Position numbers and translations under genes: made by a program. The notes beneath the pieces are model-generated. The model did not search any database. It worked only from the letters and a program-made list of their open reading frames with translations, and had not been told where the DNA came from. Shown here one piece after another: positions 50,662-60,645 of a stretch of 64,000 bases of DNA (within the stretch, counting starts at the first letter, position 1; each line of letters opens with the position of its first letter). The DNA is from Acidobacteriota bacterium (GTDB lineage: Bacteria; Acidobacteriota; Terriglobia; Terriglobales; SCQP01). Location of the stretch: assembly GCA_021818955.1 (NCBI GenBank), contig JAKASR010000017.1, positions 1 through 64,000 of the forward strand. The letters are read 5' to 3'.

Positions 50662-51688
50662 AGGTAATAATCATCAATGACTCCCAAACCCAAAATCGCG
50701 TTAATTACCGGCATCACTGGCCAGGATGGCTCGTATCTGGCCGAATTGCTACTGTCGAAAGGCTATGAAGTTCACGGGGTAGTGCGCCGGGTGGCGATGG
50801 AAAGCCCGGAAGCGCGACTGCAACGTATTCTGCCCCTGCTCTCCCGCATCAAACTGCATGCGGCCTCGCTCGAAAGCTATCCCAGTTTATTCACCATCGT
50901 GGCCAAGGTTAAGCCCGAGGAATGTTATCACCTCGCGGCGCAGAGCTTTGTCAGCTACTCATTCGAGGACGAATTCTCAACCCTGAACACCAATATCAAC
51001 GGCACACATTATCTGCTCTCGGCCGTGAAGAACGCCGCGCCTGACTGCCGTTTTTATTTTGCCGGCTCCAGCGAAATGTTCGGCAAAGTGCGGCAAACGC
51101 CCCAAGACGAGCAGACGCCGTTCCATCCGCGTTCCGCCTATGGAATTTCCAAAGTGGCCGGCTATGATCTCACGCGCAATTATCGCGAAGCGTACAACCT
51201 GTACACCTGCGCCGGCATTTTATTCAACCACGAATCGCCGCGCCGCGGGCTGGAGTTCGTCACCCGCAAAATCACCGCCGCGGTGGGCCGGATTCGCGCC
51301 GGGCAGCAGAAGGAATTGCGCCTGGGCAATCTCGACGCGCGGCGCGACTGGGGTCATGCCCGCGATTACGTCGAGGCGATGTGGCGCATGCTGCAACAAC
51401 CGGCACCGGATGATTATGTCATCGCCACAGGTGAGACCCACTCGGTGCGCGATTTCGCGGATAAGGCCTTTTCGGCGGCCGGCCTGAACTATCAGGATTA
51501 CGTCGTTAGCGACCCGGAATTTTATCGCCCGGCGGAGGTCGACCTGTTACTGGGCGACGCTTCGAAAGCCCACCAGGTATTGGGCTGGAAACCGGCCAGC
51601 AGCTTCGATAACCTGGTTGAAGAAATGGTCAACGGCGACCTGCACTTGGCTCACGCCGCCCATCAGCCCTGAAGATAGAGTTGTAGAG
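50662..51688 (+). repeat. first copy of a 1-kb direct repeat carrying gmd
   Basis: The sequence from AGGTAA before the first gmd gene to just after its stop recurs nearly unchanged, in the same orientation, at about 59620-60645. The two copies differ by scattered substitutions and small indels (TAATAATC versus TAATC before the ATG; a 6-nt GAAGAT insertion after the second stop). Sequence outside these limits is unrelated. The copies are about 9 kb apart and bracket the cys and sulfite-reductase genes. Confidence 0.85.
50677..51672 (+). CDS. gmd: GDP-mannose 4,6-dehydratase (copy 1)
   Basis: 331 aa. Makes GDP-4-keto-6-deoxy-D-mannose, precursor of GDP-fucose, rhamnose and perosamine. NADP motif ALITGITGQDGSYLAELLL, then ECYHLAAQSFVSYSFEDEFS, FYFAGSSEMFGKVRQ and the catalytic RSAYGISKVAGYD (YxxxK). 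Shorter than E. coli Gmd (373 aa), as in many bacterial variants. No GDP-mannose pyrophosphorylase or reductase lies in the window; the DegT enzyme at 54836 is a candidate next step. Confidence 0.92.
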   Translation: MTPKPKIALITGITGQDGSYLAELLLSKGYEVHGVVRRVAMESPEARLQRILPLLSRIKLHAASLESYPSLFTIVAKVKPEECYHLAAQSFVSYSFEDEFSTLNTNINGTHYLLSAVKNAAPDCRFYFAGSSEMFGKVRQTPQDEQTPFHPRSAYGISKVAGYDLTRNYREAYNLYTCAGILFNHESPRRGLEFVTRKITAAVGRIRAGQQKELRLGNLDARRDWGHARDYVEAMWRMLQQPAPDDYVIATGETHSVRDFADKAFSAAGLNYQDYVVSDPEFYRPAEVDLLLGDASKAHQVLGWKPASSFDNLVEEMVNGDLHLAHAAHQP

Positions 51689-54835: not shown

Positions 54836-55975
54836 ATGATAAATAGAATGGCAACCGAAATAAAGACATTCTCGCCCATGCTGGCGATCGCCGACACCTC
54901 GTTGACGGAAGCCGAGATTCAGGCCGCGGTCAATGTGCTGCGCTCCGGCGCGCTGAGGCAAGGTGGGGAGTGTGACGCTTTCGAGGCGGAGTTTGCCGCC
55001 CGGGTGGGCGCGCCTTATGCCGTCTCTAGTGCCAGCGGCACAGCTGCCCTGCATCTGGCATATATGACGTTTCTGCAGCCAGGGGACGAGGTGTTGCTGC
55101 CATCTTTCACCTTCATCGCCACGGGCAGCACGGTGAGCGCCGCGGGAGGACGGCCGGTCTTCTGCGATGTGGATCCGGAAACCTTTCTTCTAGATCTGGC
55201 TGATGCCGAACGTAAGCTGACCCCGCGCACCCGCGCCATCTCGCCCGTGCACCTGTTTGGCAATCCTTGCGATCTAGCGGCAGTTGAGGCGTTTGCAGCC
55301 CAACACCGGCTAAGAATCATCTGGGATGCGGCTCAAGCCCATGGAGCGCGCTGGCAGGGGCGTGAGCTTGGCGGCTGGGACGATTTTGTTGCGTATTCGT
55401 TTTACCCAACCAAAAATCTTTTTGTAGGCGAGGGAGGCATGACTTGCACCCTCAATCCGGAGCTGGCCGAACGAATGCGCTACTTGCGCTCGCATGGCCA
55501 GACGGGCCGGTATCTGCATACCCTGCCGGGCCTGAACTATCGCATGTCCGATGTGGAAGCGGCGATTGGCCGGGCTCAATTGCATCGTTTTGACGCGATG
55601 CTGGCGGCGCGCCGCCGGCATGCGGCGATCCTTCGCGATGGGTTATCCTCCCTGCCGGGACTGCATCTGCAGAAAGTTGTCCCGGGAAACGAGCCGGCGT
55701 GGCATCAGTTTTGTTTTCGCGTTGAGGCCGGCGCCTTTGGCTGCGATCGCAATCAGTTGGCGCAAAAGCTCGCCGATCAAGGCATTGCCACCGCAGTGCA
55801 TTATCCCCGCGGCTTGCACCAACAACCTGTGTTTCGCCAGCTCTATGGCGACTCGTTTTTGCCGGCGACCGAGGCGATAGCGCAAAGTATCCTGGCCGTG
55901 CCGGTGCATCATGGGCTTACTGAACATGACGCCGAACGTATCGTTGAAGCGATTGTGGCTGCACGCACCGGTTGA
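54836..55975 (+). CDS. DegT-family aminotransferase, perosamine-synthase-like
   Basis: 379 aa (375 from the ATG at 54848). PLP enzyme: SASGTAALHLAYMTFLQPGD, VLLPSFTFIATGSTVSAAGG, IIWDAAQAHGARWQG and the PLP lysine in AYSFYPTKNLFVGEGGM. It lies between sulfate-activation genes and the sulfite reductase leader, and a gmd gene occurs on either side. GDP-4-keto-6-deoxymannose amination (GDP-perosamine synthase) fits the gmd neighbours, but other 4-amino sugars are possible. Confidence 0.82.
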   Translation: MINRMATEIKTFSPMLAIADTSLTEAEIQAAVNVLRSGALRQGGECDAFEAEFAARVGAPYAVSSASGTAALHLAYMTFLQPGDEVLLPSFTFIATGSTVSAAGGRPVFCDVDPETFLLDLADAERKLTPRTRAISPVHLFGNPCDLAAVEAFAAQHRLRIIWDAAQAHGARWQGRELGGWDDFVAYSFYPTKNLFVGEGGMTCTLNPELAERMRYLRSHGQTGRYLHTLPGLNYRMSDVEAAIGRAQLHRFDAMLAARRRHAAILRDGLSSLPGLHLQKVVPGNEPAWHQFCFRVEAGAFGCDRNQLAQKLADQGIATAVHYPRGLHQQPVFRQLYGDSFLPATEAIAQSILAVPVHHGLTEHDAERIVEAIVAARTG

Positions 55976-56064
55976 ATTTCATGCAGAATACGGTGCCGTC
56001 CAATCAGACTGCGTGATACTTCCCCTTCGCCGGTCCTTGCCCGTCGGTTGGCAAGAAAATAAGC

Positions 56065-56070
56065 TATAAT
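56065..56070 (+). promoter_or_regulatory. TATAAT -10 element for the sulfite reductase leader
   Basis: Consensus -10 hexamer; a start point near 56077 would place the mRNA end just before the GGAG at 56082-56085 used by the leader ORF. No good -35 hexamer at 16-18 nt (CGTCGG region), so an activator such as a LysR-type sulfur regulator may be needed. Confidence 0.5.
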
Positions 56071-56090
56071 CATAATTTCTCGGAGCCCAA

Positions 56091-56192
56091 GTGAGCCTCG
56101 CTCATCCATTTGGTTTTCGCCGCATGACCCGCCGTTCCGGCTGTTGTCCTTGTCCCAATCCCTATCCGGCGAACTATTTGAGGCGCACCTAA
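56091..56192 (+). CDS. cysteine-rich leader peptide of the sulfite reductase attenuator
   Basis: 33-codon ORF from GTG 56091 to TAA 56190-56192; an in-frame ATG at 56124 would give 22 codons. GGAG at 56082-56085 is 5 nt before the GTG. The peptide contains RRSGCCPCPNPYPANYLRR: three Cys codons (56142, 56145, 56151, all TGT) within four positions, followed by a Pro-rich stretch. No domain is recognisable, and the ORF sits just upstream of a terminator preceding a cysteine-biosynthesis gene, so it is read as an attenuation leader: the ribosome stalls there when Cys-tRNA is scarce. The same principle (Cys-rich uORFs) is known from mycobacteria; this sequence is unrelated as far as I can tell. 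Confidence 0.75.
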   Translation: MSLAHPFGFRRMTRRSGCCPCPNPYPANYLRRT

Positions 56193-56230
56193 CCCGCAGA
56201 AATCATCGGCCCTCATCACCCATCGCCGGA
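56165..56230 (+). promoter_or_regulatory. candidate antiterminator pairing
   Basis: TCCGGCGA at 56165-56172, inside the leader ORF 12 nt after the last Cys codon, is perfectly complementary to TCGCCGGA at 56223-56230, the inner part of the 5' arm of the terminator. Pairing of the two would prevent the terminator hairpin. A ribosome stalled on the Cys codons would leave 56165-56172 free; one finishing at 56190 would mask it. Confidence 0.65.
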
Positions 56231-56252
56231 AAGGTCCGGCGATGGGTTTTTT
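56219..56252 (+). terminator. intrinsic terminator of the attenuator
   Basis: Perfect 12-bp stem: CCCATCGCCGGA (56219-56230), loop AAGG, TCCGGCGATGGG (56235-56246), then six T (56247-56252). It ends 28 nt before the sulfite reductase ATG. Because it lies between the leader ORF and the reductase gene, it is read as regulatory rather than as the terminator of the aminotransferase gene. Confidence 0.85.
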
Positions 56253-56280
56253 GCTTTATGGGCCAAATTCAAAAACACCT

Positions 56281-58530
56281 ATGAAAGTATCCAATCCCGC
56301 ATGGAAAGATCGTCTGTCGGAGCGCTTGCCGGAAAATCTGGCGCGCGAAGTGGACATCTTCGAGGCCGAGATCGGCTTGCGCAAGCAGGGCAAGCTGGAT
56401 GAAAAATTGTTTGCCGAAACCCGCCTGCGCCGCGGCGTCTATGGCCAGCGCTACGACAATGGCCAACGCAGCGACGGCCGCGTCCTGCGCCGCCTGCCCT
56501 ACCCGGAACACCCCAGCAAAGGTCCGAATACGCTCTGGGATGCTCCCGGCATGCAGCGCATCAAAGTGCCGGGGGGCGGTTTAAGTGCGGCGCAACTGGA
56601 AACCATCGCCGAGCTGGCGGAGGAATACTCCGACGGAATCGCCCATATCACCACCCGTCAGGACTTCCAACTCCATTACGTGCACATCGAAAACACGCCC
56701 AGCGTGATGCGCCGTCTCGCCGCCGTGGGCATCACCACCCGCGAGGCTTGCGGCAACGCCGTTCGCAATGTCACCGCCTGTCCTTATGCCGGCGTCTGCC
56801 CGGATGAGGCGTTTGATGTCTCCCCCTATGCCACCCGCCTGGCCTGGCATCTAATGGGCCATCCCGATTGCCAGGATTTTGGCCGCAAGTTCAAACCCGC
56901 CTTTAGCGGCTGCGGCAATCATGCCTGCGGTCTTGCCAAAATCCACGATCTCGGCTTGGTGGCGGTTACCCGCGAGGAAAATGGCGTTCTCCAGCGCGGC
57001 TTTCAAATGTATGTCGGCGGCGGCCTGGGACCGGTCCCGTATCAGGCCCAGTTGTTCAGCGATTTCATTCCGGTGGCCGAACTGCTGCCGATGGCCCAAG
57101 CCATTGGGCGCGTTTACGCCCGCCTGGGAGAAAAGAAAAATCGCAACCGGGCGCGGCTGAAATTCCTGTTGCATGACCTTGGTCTGGAAAAGTTTCGCGA
57201 CTTGGTTTTCGCCGAGCGCCAGCGGCTGGAACCAGACCCGCGCTGGACCGATTACCTCGCCGCGGCGGAACAAAACCAGGAGGCTGCGCTGCGGCCGGCA
57301 GGCGAGTTGTCCCCCTCCGGTTCAGAAAAATTCGAGCGCTGGCTGCGTGCCAATACCCGTGCGCAGAAGCAACCCGGATACGCCGCCGTAACCATCAAGC
57401 TGCCGCTGGGCGACATTACCGCCCGGCAACTACGCCAGTTGGCGGACATGGTCCGCCGCTATACCTGCGAAACCGTGCGCACTACCGTCGAGCAGAATTT
57501 TGTCATCCGCTGGGTCAGCCGCGGCGATCTGCCCGCGCTGTATGCCGAACTCGAAGCCGCCCATCTGGCCGAACCCGGCGCCGGCGGCATCGCGGATATT
57601 GTCAGTTGCCCTGGCACCGACACCTGCAAGCTCGGCATCTCCTCCTCGCGCGGCCTGGCGGCGGAACTGCGCCGGCAGTTCGCCCAGGGCGCGCTAGATG
57701 ACCTCGATGAAGCCACCCGCAAGCTGCGCATAAAAATCAGCGGCTGCTTCAATAGCTGCGGCCAGCATCACATCGCCGATCTGGGATTTTACGGGGTCAG
57801 CCGCAAAGCCGCCGGCCAGGCGGCGCCGCATTTCCAGGTCGTGCTGGGCGGCGAATGGGAAGATAACGCCGGCGCTTATGGATTGCCCATCGCCGCCGTT
57901 CCTGCCAAGCACATCCCCGAAGTCGTGCGCCGCCTCACCCGCCGATTTCAAGCCGATCGCCAGCCCGGGCAAAGCTTTCGCGGCTTTGTCCAAAGCCTCG
58001 GCCGGTCGGAACTGAAAGCCCTGCTGGAAGATCTGACTCGCGTTCCCGCCGGCGACGCCTCTTTCCTCAGCGATTGGGGCGATCCGCGGGTGTATAGCCT
58101 CGAAGACATGGGCGTGGGCGAGTGCGCCGGCGAGGTGATTTCCCCGGTGGAGTTTGATCTGGCCGCCGCCGAACGCCAGGTCTTCGAGGCGCAGCTGGCG
58201 CTCGAGCGCCAGCAACCCCAGGCGGCCGGCCAGATGGCTTATCGCGCCATGCTGCAGGGAGCCAAGGGACTGGTGAAGCTAAACCACAATCCCGGAGACG
58301 ATCCGGCGCGCATCGTTGCCGAGTTCCGCGCCCAGTATTTTGACACGCGGCTGTTTTTCGATCCCTTCGTCGGCGGCCAGTTCGCTCAATACTTGTTCGC
58401 CGCGCATGCCAGCCCGGATCGGGCGCACGATGCGGCTTCGGCCGGAACCCTCATCCGCGAAGCGCAGCTATTTATTGACGCCTGCCACGGCTGCTACAAC
58501 CGCCTATCCGCCGAGCCGGTCGAGGCATAA
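56281..58530 (+). CDS. siroheme-dependent sulfite (or nitrite) reductase with C-terminal extension
   Basis: 749 aa. Reduces sulfite to sulfide (six electrons), assimilatory type. Two ferredoxin-like/siroheme repeats: TTRQDFQLHYVHIENTP and NVTACPYAGVCPDEAFD in the first half; SCPGTDTCKLGISSSRG (about 441) and ISGCFNSCGQHHIADLGFYG (about 486) provide the C-x5-C and C-x3-C ligands for the Fe4S4-siroheme. After about residue 630 there is an extra helical region (AQLALERQQPQAAGQMAYRA) of HEPN-like look. Start ATG 56281; the longer frame starts inside the terminator. The Cys attenuator upstream supports a role in cysteine synthesis rather than nitrite reduction. Confidence 0.88.
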   Translation: MKVSNPAWKDRLSERLPENLAREVDIFEAEIGLRKQGKLDEKLFAETRLRRGVYGQRYDNGQRSDGRVLRRLPYPEHPSKGPNTLWDAPGMQRIKVPGGGLSAAQLETIAELAEEYSDGIAHITTRQDFQLHYVHIENTPSVMRRLAAVGITTREACGNAVRNVTACPYAGVCPDEAFDVSPYATRLAWHLMGHPDCQDFGRKFKPAFSGCGNHACGLAKIHDLGLVAVTREENGVLQRGFQMYVGGGLGPVPYQAQLFSDFIPVAELLPMAQAIGRVYARLGEKKNRNRARLKFLLHDLGLEKFRDLVFAERQRLEPDPRWTDYLAAAEQNQEAALRPAGELSPSGSEKFERWLRANTRAQKQPGYAAVTIKLPLGDITARQLRQLADMVRRYTCETVRTTVEQNFVIRWVSRGDLPALYAELEAAHLAEPGAGGIADIVSCPGTDTCKLGISSSRGLAAELRRQFAQGALDDLDEATRKLRIKISGCFNSCGQHHIADLGFYGVSRKAAGQAAPHFQVVLGGEWEDNAGAYGLPIAAVPAKHIPEVVRRLTRRFQADRQPGQSFRGFVQSLGRSELKALLEDLTRVPAGDASFLSDWGDPRVYSLEDMGVGECAGEVISPVEFDLAAAERQVFEAQLALERQQPQAAGQMAYRAMLQGAKGLVKLNHNPGDDPARIVAEFRAQYFDTRLFFDPFVGGQFAQYLFAAHASPDRAHDAASAGTLIREAQLFIDACHGCYNRLSAEPVEA

Positions 58531-58581: not shown

Positions 58582-59148
58582 ATGGAACTCGAACATCTCG
58601 CCTTCAAGCTTTTCATCGCCCCCCCGCCCGAGGCGACCGTTGCCGCCCTGGTGCCGGTGTTTCATTCCTGGATTACGGCAGGTTCAGCAGAAGAATTGCT
58701 GATCGATGTTGCCGATTATCGCCATGTTCCCGAAGGGCCGGGCGTGGTGCTGATCGGATTCCGGGCCGACTATAGCCTGGATCATAGCGGCGGCCGCTGG
58801 GGAATCCGGTACTACCGCAAAGCGCCGCTTGCGGGCGGCAATCTCGATCGCTTGTTGCATGCCGCGCGCGCCACGCTAAACGCCTGCCGGCGGCTGCAAG
58901 CAGACTCGCGACTGTCAGGTGGCATACGTCTCGATGGCCATGAGTTCGAAATCCAGGTATGTGACCGCCTGCTCGCGCCCAATACCGCCTCCGCGCAGCA
59001 GGAGTTCACTGCCGAGTTGGCTCCCTTCCTCGAGCGATTCCTCCGGGGTGGCCCCTATCGGTTAACTTACGACAACGATCCCCGCAGCCTGCTCGCTACC
59101 CGCGTTACTTCCGAGTATATTTTTGAACTTGATCACTCTCTCTCGTAA
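58582..59148 (+). CDS. conserved small protein downstream of sulfite reductase, unknown function
   Basis: 188 aa, soluble, no signal peptide or membrane segment. Features: MELEHLAFKLFIAPPPEAT, FHSWITAGSAEELLIDVADY, GPGVVLIGFRADYSLDHSGG, RWGIRYYRKAPLAGG. Reads as a mixed alpha/beta protein; I recognise no catalytic motif and only one Cys-containing segment (EIQVCDRLLAPN). It starts 51 nt after the reductase, so it is likely co-transcribed and under the same attenuator. Could be an electron-transfer accessory or a siroheme-related factor, but this is a guess. Confidence 0.7.
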   Translation: MELEHLAFKLFIAPPPEATVAALVPVFHSWITAGSAEELLIDVADYRHVPEGPGVVLIGFRADYSLDHSGGRWGIRYYRKAPLAGGNLDRLLHAARATLNACRRLQADSRLSGGIRLDGHEFEIQVCDRLLAPNTASAQQEFTAELAPFLERFLRGGPYRLTYDNDPRSLLATRVTSEYIFELDHSLS

Positions 59149-59631
59149 ATTACTCTGCCTATGCCATGGGCTCCGCCGGGGACAAGGTTGACTTGAAATC
59201 CAATGCCGGGTCTGCTTCAAGATGCAATAGAGCGTAATCAACAAGGTATGCGCGGCGGCAATGATGGCTCTGTTTTTTGCCTCGGCGAGCCGCAAATCGG
59301 CGGTGCCCGAAAAGTATGTGTTCCGCTTAGGAGAAGCGGCTCAGGCTGCCTGGCACAACGCACGTTAAGCCACGGCGCACCGTAGCAGGACGCCCAGTCG
59401 TCGAATAAAGATGAACGAAACGGCGCAACGATCCCCTCAGGGATTCCTCCGCCCCTGCGGCGAATCGGGCGTAACGGGTGATTAGCTGGACTCCGCTGTT
59501 TAGCGGCAAGTATAAGCATCGGAGCTTGATGGACATTTTGTCCACACATGCTCCAATAGAAATAGACGCGCTCACCGCCTTTGCAGCTACACTGATGCGG
59601 GGTTTTTCAGCAGCCTTGCAGGTAATCATCA
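59149..59631 (-). pseudogene. gene-free stretch with remnant of an IS110-family transposase
   Basis: 483 bp without an intact gene. On the minus strand at about 59160-59330 a short frame reads LRLAEAKNRAIIAAAHTLLI then TLYCILK, which resembles the C-terminus of IS110/IS116 transposases (RRGKKRAIVAVAHSLL type). It is preceded by a stop and by sequence in other frames, so only a decayed tail remains. No inverted repeats or intact ends are visible. Plus-strand frames here look random. Confidence 0.45.
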
Positions 59632-60645
59632 ATGACTTCCAAACCCAAAAACGCGTTAATTACTGGCATCACTGGCCAGGATGGCTCGTATCTGGCCGAA
59701 TTGCTGCTGTCGAAAGGCTATGAAGTTCACGGGGTAGTGCGCCGGGTGGCGATGGAAAGCCCGGAAGCGCGACTGCAACGTATTCTGCCCCTGCTCTCCC
59801 GCATCAAACTGCATGCGGCCTCGCTTGAAAGCTATCCCAGTTTATTCACCATCGTGGCCAAGGTTAAGCCCGAGGAATGTTATCACCTTGCGGCGCAGAG
59901 CTTTGTCAGCTACTCATTCGAAGACGAATTCTCAACCCTGAACACCAATATCAACGGCACGCATTATCTGCTCTCGGCGGTGAAGAACGCCGCGCCTGAC
60001 TGCCGTTTTTATTTTGCCGGTTCCAGCGAAATGTTCGGCAAGGTGCGGCAATCGCCCCAAGACGAGCAAACGCCGTTTCATCCGCGTTCCGCCTATGGAA
60101 TTTCCAAGGTGGCCGGCTACGATCTCACGCGTAATTATCGCGAAGCGTATAACATTTACGCCTGCGCCGGCATTTTATTCAACCACGAATCGCCGCGCCG
60201 CGGGTTGGAGTTCGTCACCCGCAAAATCACCGCCGCGGTGGGCCGGATTCGCGCCGGGCAGCAGAAGGAATTGCGCCTGGGCAATCTCGACGCGCGGCGC
60301 GACTGGGGCCATGCCCGCGATTACGTCGAGGCGATGTGGCGCATGCTGCAACAACCGGCGCCGGATGATTATGTCATCGCCACAGGTGAAACTCACTCGG
60401 TGCGCGATTTCGCGGATAAAGCCTTTTCGGCGGCCGGCCTGAACTATCAGGATTACGTCGTTAGCGACCCGGAATTTTATCGCCCAGCGGAGGTCGACCT
60501 GTTACTGGGCGATGCTTCGAAAGCCCACCAGGTATTGGGCTGGAAACCGGCCAGCAGCTTCGATGACCTGGTTGAAGAAATGGTCAACGGCGACCTGCAC
60601 TTGGCTCGCGCCACCCATTAGTCCTGAAGATGAAGATAGGGTTAT
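59620..60645 (+). repeat. second copy of the 1-kb gmd direct repeat
   Basis: Matches 50662-51688 at nearly every base, same orientation. Homology starts at AGGTAATCATC before the ATG and fades after the CTGAAGAT motif beyond the stop. It joins decayed sequence on both sides, so this copy is probably the inserted one. Confidence 0.85.
59632..60621 (+). CDS. gmd: GDP-mannose 4,6-dehydratase (copy 2)
   Basis: 329 aa, intact, about eight substitutions relative to copy 1 plus a different C-terminal end (ARATH against AHAAHQP). Differences are conservative and include residues 3 and 7 and a Thr/Ser in VRQSPQDEQ. Cofactor and catalytic motifs are unchanged, so it should be active. Having two intact copies suggests recent duplication with retained purifying selection or ongoing gene conversion. 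Confidence 0.9.
   Translation: MTSKPKNALITGITGQDGSYLAELLLSKGYEVHGVVRRVAMESPEARLQRILPLLSRIKLHAASLESYPSLFTIVAKVKPEECYHLAAQSFVSYSFEDEFSTLNTNINGTHYLLSAVKNAAPDCRFYFAGSSEMFGKVRQSPQDEQTPFHPRSAYGISKVAGYDLTRNYREAYNIYACAGILFNHESPRRGLEFVTRKITAAVGRIRAGQQKELRLGNLDARRDWGHARDYVEAMWRMLQQPAPDDYVIATGETHSVRDFADKAFSAAGLNYQDYVVSDPEFYRPAEVDLLLGDASKAHQVLGWKPASSFDDLVEEMVNGDLHLARATH

Follow-up and report, generated by a model that had tools for sequence, protein, structure and literature searches.

The leader of the reductase gene in the stretch of DNA analysed here (64,000 nucleotides of an Acidobacteriota (Terriglobia) genome, hereafter the window) is, with a probability that we put at about 0.92 from comparative sequence analysis, a transcription attenuator of the classical ribosome-mediated kind, the signal that it reads being charged tRNA-Cys. 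Leaders of this type have a common anatomy, are conserved in related genomes, contain covarying pairs and are associated with a recurrent set of genes. A trp/his-type attenuator built for cysteine had been proposed in a preliminary description of this DNA, and the comparative evidence, including covariation of the antiterminator, argues for that proposal.

Anatomy and predicted folding of the window leader

All elements of the leader lie on the forward strand. The TATAAT at 56065-56070 named in the preliminary description is present and could serve as an alternative -10 element, but TTGGCA-17 nt-CATAAT (56048..56076; 10/12 match in a consensus scan) is better spaced, scores higher and is the probable promoter. 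Since transcription from this promoter would begin about 8 nt 5' of the GTG codon, the use of the promoter and that of the possible Shine-Dalgarno sequence GGAG (56082..56085, 5 nt 5' of the GTG) are uncertain, and the GGAG may sit at the extreme 5' end of the transcript. The leader ORF (56091..56192) starts with GTG, has 33 codons, ends in TAA and encodes the peptide MSLAHPFGFRRMTRRSGCCPCPNPYPANYLRRT. Its control codons, TGT TGT CCT TGT (56142..56153, with the Cys codons starting at 56142, 56145 and 56151), specify Cys-Cys-Pro-Cys. The AAGTGA start context, the frame and the Cys run are all kept in a relative from the same genus (L031).

Four segments capable of alternative pairing can be delineated. 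Segment 1 (56116..56122) can pair with segment 2, as indicated by predicted folding and by pairing across the family. Segment 2 (56165..56172), the antiterminator strand TCCGGCGA, begins 12 nt 3' of the last Cys codon, is an exact copy of the first part of the 3' arm of the terminator hairpin and pairs, with covariation, with segment 3. Segments 3 (56218..56230) and 4 (56235..56247) are the 5' and 3' arms of the hairpin CCCATCGCCGGA-AAGG-TCCGGCGATGGG (56218-56247), which has 12 perfect base pairs, or 13 counting the outer A-U, and a predicted stability of -25.8 kcal/mol. With the six T residues that form the U-tract (56247..56252), the hairpin makes an intrinsic terminator (56218-56252) between the leader ORF and the reductase gene, ending 28 nt 5' of the ATG at 56281. 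Re-reading of the window bore out the GGAG and the GTG-started Cys-Cys-Pro-Cys ORF, the hairpin with its T run and spacing, and the 8-nt segment facing the 5' arm, all as originally described. The whole leader folds more strongly than its shuffles (z = -2.6).

Under the mechanism that we infer, a ribosome would translate the 33-codon ORF at the same time as RNA polymerase transcribes the leader. If Cys-tRNA-Cys is ample, the ribosome would pass the Cys codons and segment 2 and reach the stop codon, segment 3 would be free to pair with segment 4, aided by the pairing of segments 1 and 2, and transcription would stop before the reductase gene. A ribosome stalled at the control codons would leave segment 2 exposed; segment 2 would then take segment 3 before segment 4 is made, the terminator would come too late, and the reductase and the conserved ORF behind it would be transcribed. 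A point against this model is that, when the ribosome is placed at the stop codon, segment 2 falls at, or just beyond, the edge of its footprint.

In predicted folding of the lengthening transcript, the helix between segments 1 and 2 forms first, with a probability of 0.7-0.8 as long as segment 3 has not been made. The helix between segments 2 and 3 dominates after segment 3 has been completed (0.96-0.99 up to a 3' end at about 56240), and the terminator replaces the antiterminator when segment 4 is complete. This order suggests that termination is decided by timing, which could be set by the position of the ribosome. In folds with and without a stalled ribosome, a comparison suggested in the preliminary description, the terminator wins at equilibrium as soon as its 3' arm is complete (3' end at 56247), whether or not the ribosome is stalled. 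The attenuation model therefore requires kinetic trapping, as attenuators usually do.

The window is part of contig 20 in an assembly of 3.8 Mb, the relatives of which are metagenome-assembled genomes of Acidobacteriota/Terriglobia. The controlled gene (56281..58530, forward strand) encodes a 749-aa reductase of the NIR_SIR superfamily, with two stretches each matching Pfam NIR_SIR and NIR_SIR_ferr; the start at 56281 agrees with the orthologues, whereas the mechanical ORF begins at 56242. Because the matches to the NCBIfam NirA and sulfite reductase models fall below the cut-offs of these models, assignment to the sulfite reductase type is likely but unproven. The genes 5' of the leader are cysD, cysN/C and that of a DegT-type aminotransferase. 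Directly 3' of the reductase is a 188-aa ORF (58582..59148, forward strand) without a match in Pfam or NCBIfam, a relative of which occupies the same position in 78 related loci; it is probably the second gene of the reductase transcript and a candidate partner of this reductase type. These 78 loci include representatives of Planctomycetota, Verrucomicrobia and SAR324. The cys cluster is flanked by a 300-nt direct repeat with 98% identity (50668-50967 and 59623-59922). The second copy falls in the start of an ORF (59632-60621) that on inspection is GDP-mannose dehydratase-like, so that this gene appears to be duplicated.

Orthologous leaders, covariation and a probable cysteine regulon

Protein searches for reductase orthologues yielded 24 loci, the window included, in which a short ORF contains a run with at least three Cys codons; in all 24, a terminator follows 19-49 nt 3' of the ORF stop. 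The leader peptides (L031, L036-L062) have diverged to the point that they share little besides the Cys run, as in MCCCCSCRV, MPCCPCIMP and CACCCCACR, and the Cys codons are a mixture of TGT and TGC. A hairpin retained without Cys codons, which the preliminary description had singled out as evidence against attenuation, was not encountered among reductase orthologues with a complete leader region: these carry either both the Cys-run ORF and the terminator or neither. At one locus (L054) a terminator is seen without an ORF, but the contig ends before the ORF position. Leader and terminator are both missing from some eight of the closest named orthologues (among them L032, L033, L034, L048, L050 and L052), which indicates that the device is dispensable.

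In nearly all loci, the 5' arm of the terminator has a pairing partner in a segment that starts a few nucleotides 3' of the last Cys codon, and the paired sequences differ wholly between groups: TCCGGCGA:TCGCCGGA in the window, CTTCTGG:CCAGAAG in L003/L038/L045, GCCGGCG:CGTCGG in L040/L051, CCGGGGTG:CACCCCG in L062 and GGGCTC:GAGCCC in L049. Because the antiterminator strand was misaligned by MAFFT across leader classes, counting of covarying pairs in the alignment was restricted to the terminator stem, where covariation was seen, and antiterminator covariation was assessed by swapping arms between loci. For the 24 loci, the own pairing amounted to -20.5 kcal/mol compared with -17.0 kcal/mol for swapped arms and beat all 20,000 permutations. 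Across 78 leaders the pairing reached z = -11.6, and controls with reversed or shuffled arms, which gave 0.6, 0.3 and -0.7, rule out an artefact of composition. The helix between segments 1 and 2 has weaker support, with a family-wide z of -4.3 and controls between -0.9 and 0.5.

A covariance model built from the 24 leaders had matches at E <= 0.01 in 194 of the 399 Terriglobia genomes searched and, at E <= 0.001, in 56 of 396 genomes sampled from the phylum; this sample includes some of the same Terriglobia genomes. We read 94 of the matches, and 91 contain Cys runs. The genes behind these 91 leaders, for the most part sulfur genes, encode NIR_SIR reductases of three types (39), peroxiredoxin (14), CysD (7), CysH (6), thiosulfate/3-mercaptopyruvate sulfurtransferase (5), cysteine synthase (4), siroheme synthase (3), TauE/SafE permease (3), TonB-receptor-like outer-membrane protein (2), SrpI encapsulin (2) and, in one case each, a sulfate-binding protein, a sulfonate-binding protein, a porin, a FadL-type outer-membrane protein, a sulfide:quinone-reductase-like protein and tRNA-Cys. 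The remaining three matches (L232, L233 and L235) all precede aspartate kinase genes. The ORFs of these three leaders are Thr-rich or Thr/Met-rich, e.g. MTTLIQKSTRITSTGTGMSTRITCLLEDGIG, and appear to be the Acidobacteriota counterparts of thrL; they provide a natural control in which codon identity follows the pathway.

The Cys-richness of the matches is partly by construction because Cys codons are part of the covariance model, of which the function of the downstream genes and the protein-based search are independent. We therefore added a model-free test based on protein search: a Cys-run ORF with a terminator precedes 17 of 23 conventional sulfite reductases, compared with 4 of 367 control windows from the same loci and none of 460 shuffles. 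The median distance is 30 nt from the last Cys codon to the stop and 27 nt from the stop to the terminator. Codon usage also sets the leaders (L167-L265) apart, with 247 TGT to 133 TGC codons compared with 39 to 360 in the downstream genes, i.e. TGT shares of 65% and 10%, as if the codon avoided by ordinary genes had been chosen for the leaders. Given the repeated occurrence of the device throughout Terriglobia and in other parts of Acidobacteriota, the window element belongs to a multi-operon cysteine regulon. Within its own genome the window site is the sole match to the covariance model, and among the approximately 60 TGY-run sites with DNA that were tested, out of about 110 pattern matches, it alone combines a short ORF with a convincing U-tract terminator; no Cys leader was found in this genome upstream of cysD (51929) or tRNA-Cys. 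Two further candidate Cys leaders of this genome (L164 and L165) were rejected for lack of a convincing U-tract.

Several additional cases deserve mention. Cys attenuators precede genes for porin, FadL-type and TonB-receptor-like outer-membrane proteins (L213, L217, L222 and L254), which are candidate importers of sulfur compounds. At two loci (L253 and L262) a Cys attenuator lies before a type 2A SrpI-like encapsulin gene, and in L253 also before a rhodanese-like gene. Outside the main groups, 21 genomes were tried and the six best matches read. In two genomes titled Phycisphaerae (L271 and L272), a CysH-like gene is preceded by a Cys-run ORF (CACCCCCCKASC and CACCCCCCCTAS) and a terminator. 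A 2-isopropylmalate-synthase-like gene (L273) in the genome of L089, which is titled Verrucomicrobiales, has a Leu-rich short ORF and a terminator in front of it, so that here, too, codon identity follows the pathway.

Acidobacteriaceae-like genomes have 13 loci with an attenuated peroxiredoxin gene, and in 12 of them tRNA-Cys(GCA) comes next on the same strand (L225, L227, L229, L251, L255, L256, L259, L261 and L263-L266), and in L223 (2225-2582) no protein-coding gene was found between the Cys attenuator and tRNA-Cys. At L260, a Cys-containing leader and a peroxiredoxin-like gene are followed on the same strand by a predicted tRNA-SeC. A broader reading, to which we give slightly less than even odds, is that Cys-tRNA attenuation is the main control of sulfur metabolism in Acidobacteriota, spanning operons for uptake, reduction, siroheme, cysteine synthesis and the type 2A (SrpI-like) encapsulin, and that in Acidobacteriaceae-like genomes it also governs a transcript that carries tRNA-Cys. 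Uncharged tRNA-Cys would then raise the supply of tRNA-Cys, because the attenuated transcript carries that gene, and attenuation by a leader peptide would have a new kind of target, a tRNA gene.

Alternative explanations

In other phyla, terminator-type leaders of sulfur genes are frequently SAM riboswitches or T-boxes, and the short ORF could in principle be incidental to such an element. However, no Rfam 15 family reached its gathering score in the window or in the leaders of 18 regulon loci, the best sub-threshold match being to an unrelated snoRNA model, and the leaders lack a conserved aptamer-like core, having little in common beyond the Cys run and the terminator/antiterminator. A riboswitch or T-box is thus largely excluded and, in our estimate, hardly credible. 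We consider it just as implausible that the hairpin is the ordinary terminator of the aminotransferase gene, with a separate promoter for the reductase and a coincidental Cys ORF. The aminotransferase gene does end at 55975 on the same strand, and no strong terminator that could be assigned to it lies within 240 nt, a hairpin scan 3' of it having returned only the hairpin at 56218 and a weak 6-bp one. Nevertheless, a promoter-like site lies between that gene and the 56218 hairpin, and this explanation is contradicted by conservation: across orthologues the Cys ORF and the terminator are present or missing together, and elsewhere the pair recurs before other genes.

Regulation of translation comes closer, although we regard it as very improbable. 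Stalling on the Cys codons would here alter ribosome access to the next gene, the hairpin being secondary. Cys-run ORFs without obvious terminators precede cys genes in Actinobacteria (PMC1262725), and those of Mycobacterium smegmatis are described as translation attenuation in work cited in PMC13236596. Lack of an intrinsic terminator, with translation of the next gene as the regulated step, defines the mycobacterial type, whereas in each of the 24 loci the ORF is followed by a U-tract terminator (which here ends 28 nt 5' of the reductase start codon), for which there is a covarying antiterminator. Moreover, the first downstream gene found in L223 is a tRNA gene, which has no translation start to regulate. 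Terminator-based attenuation by Cys-tRNA remains our preferred reading.

Comparison with known systems

In trpL, hisL and thrL, a leader peptide rich in the amino acid of the pathway is combined with segments pairing as 1:2, 2:3 and 3:4 and with an intrinsic terminator. The window leader resembles this type in all these respects: the ORF is rich in codons for the amino acid of the regulated pathway, an intrinsic terminator separates it from the structural gene, antiterminator and terminator are mutually exclusive, with the antiterminator strand exposed at a stall on the control codons, and a pre-emptor helix 1:2 is present, on weaker evidence than the antiterminator. It differs in that cysteine is sensed, the Cys codons are placed outside segment 1, between it and segment 2, and one architecture is reused at many unlinked operons.

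In a 2010 survey, almost no predicted attenuator of Acidobacteria had an assigned function (PMC2965389); the present analysis assigns function and mechanism to one such attenuator, together with numerous targets in a phylum that is abundant in soil. The results suggest that sulfur assimilation in Acidobacteriota is controlled by reading Cys-tRNA and not by transcription factors alone, and the existence of similarly built leaders rich in Thr or Leu suggests that leader-peptide attenuation is a general device in these little-studied phyla. The combination of a Cys-run ORF with a terminator is also an easily scored sequence marker by which sulfur genes that have gone unrecognised could be found, those for outer-membrane receptors among them.

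We found no description of Cys attenuators in Acidobacteriota in the literature searched, the coverage of which is incomplete, and one published prediction of terminator-type Cys attenuation, uORFC-8-2, found before cysS in Rhodobacterales (PMC8632094). An independent solution in another phylum is a tentative idea that fits the occurrence in Acidobacteriota and two Phycisphaerae genomes, common descent with other Cys leaders being its alternative; given uORFC-8-2, these would not be the first terminator-type Cys attenuators. The polycysteine leader ORFs found in mycobacteria and in further Actinobacteria, for which a translational mechanism has been proposed (Canestrari et al. 2020, as cited in PMC13236596), are similar in being short Cys-run ORFs 5' of cys operons, whereas the leaders described here add a terminator and a covarying antiterminator. 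With uORFC-8-2 they have in common that ribosome-mediated attenuation is predicted, that a short ORF carries tandem Cys codons and that an intrinsic terminator is present. Judged by its description, however, uORFC-8-2 differs in gene and taxon, being limited to cysS and one alphaproteobacterial order, with Cys codons within the first stem and UGC dominant, whereas here the hosts are Acidobacteriota, the targets are sulfur assimilation genes, the Cys codons lie 5' of the antiterminator strand and UGU dominates. The mechanism is a classical one; the scale of the regulon, the phyla and the tRNA-Cys target appear to be new.
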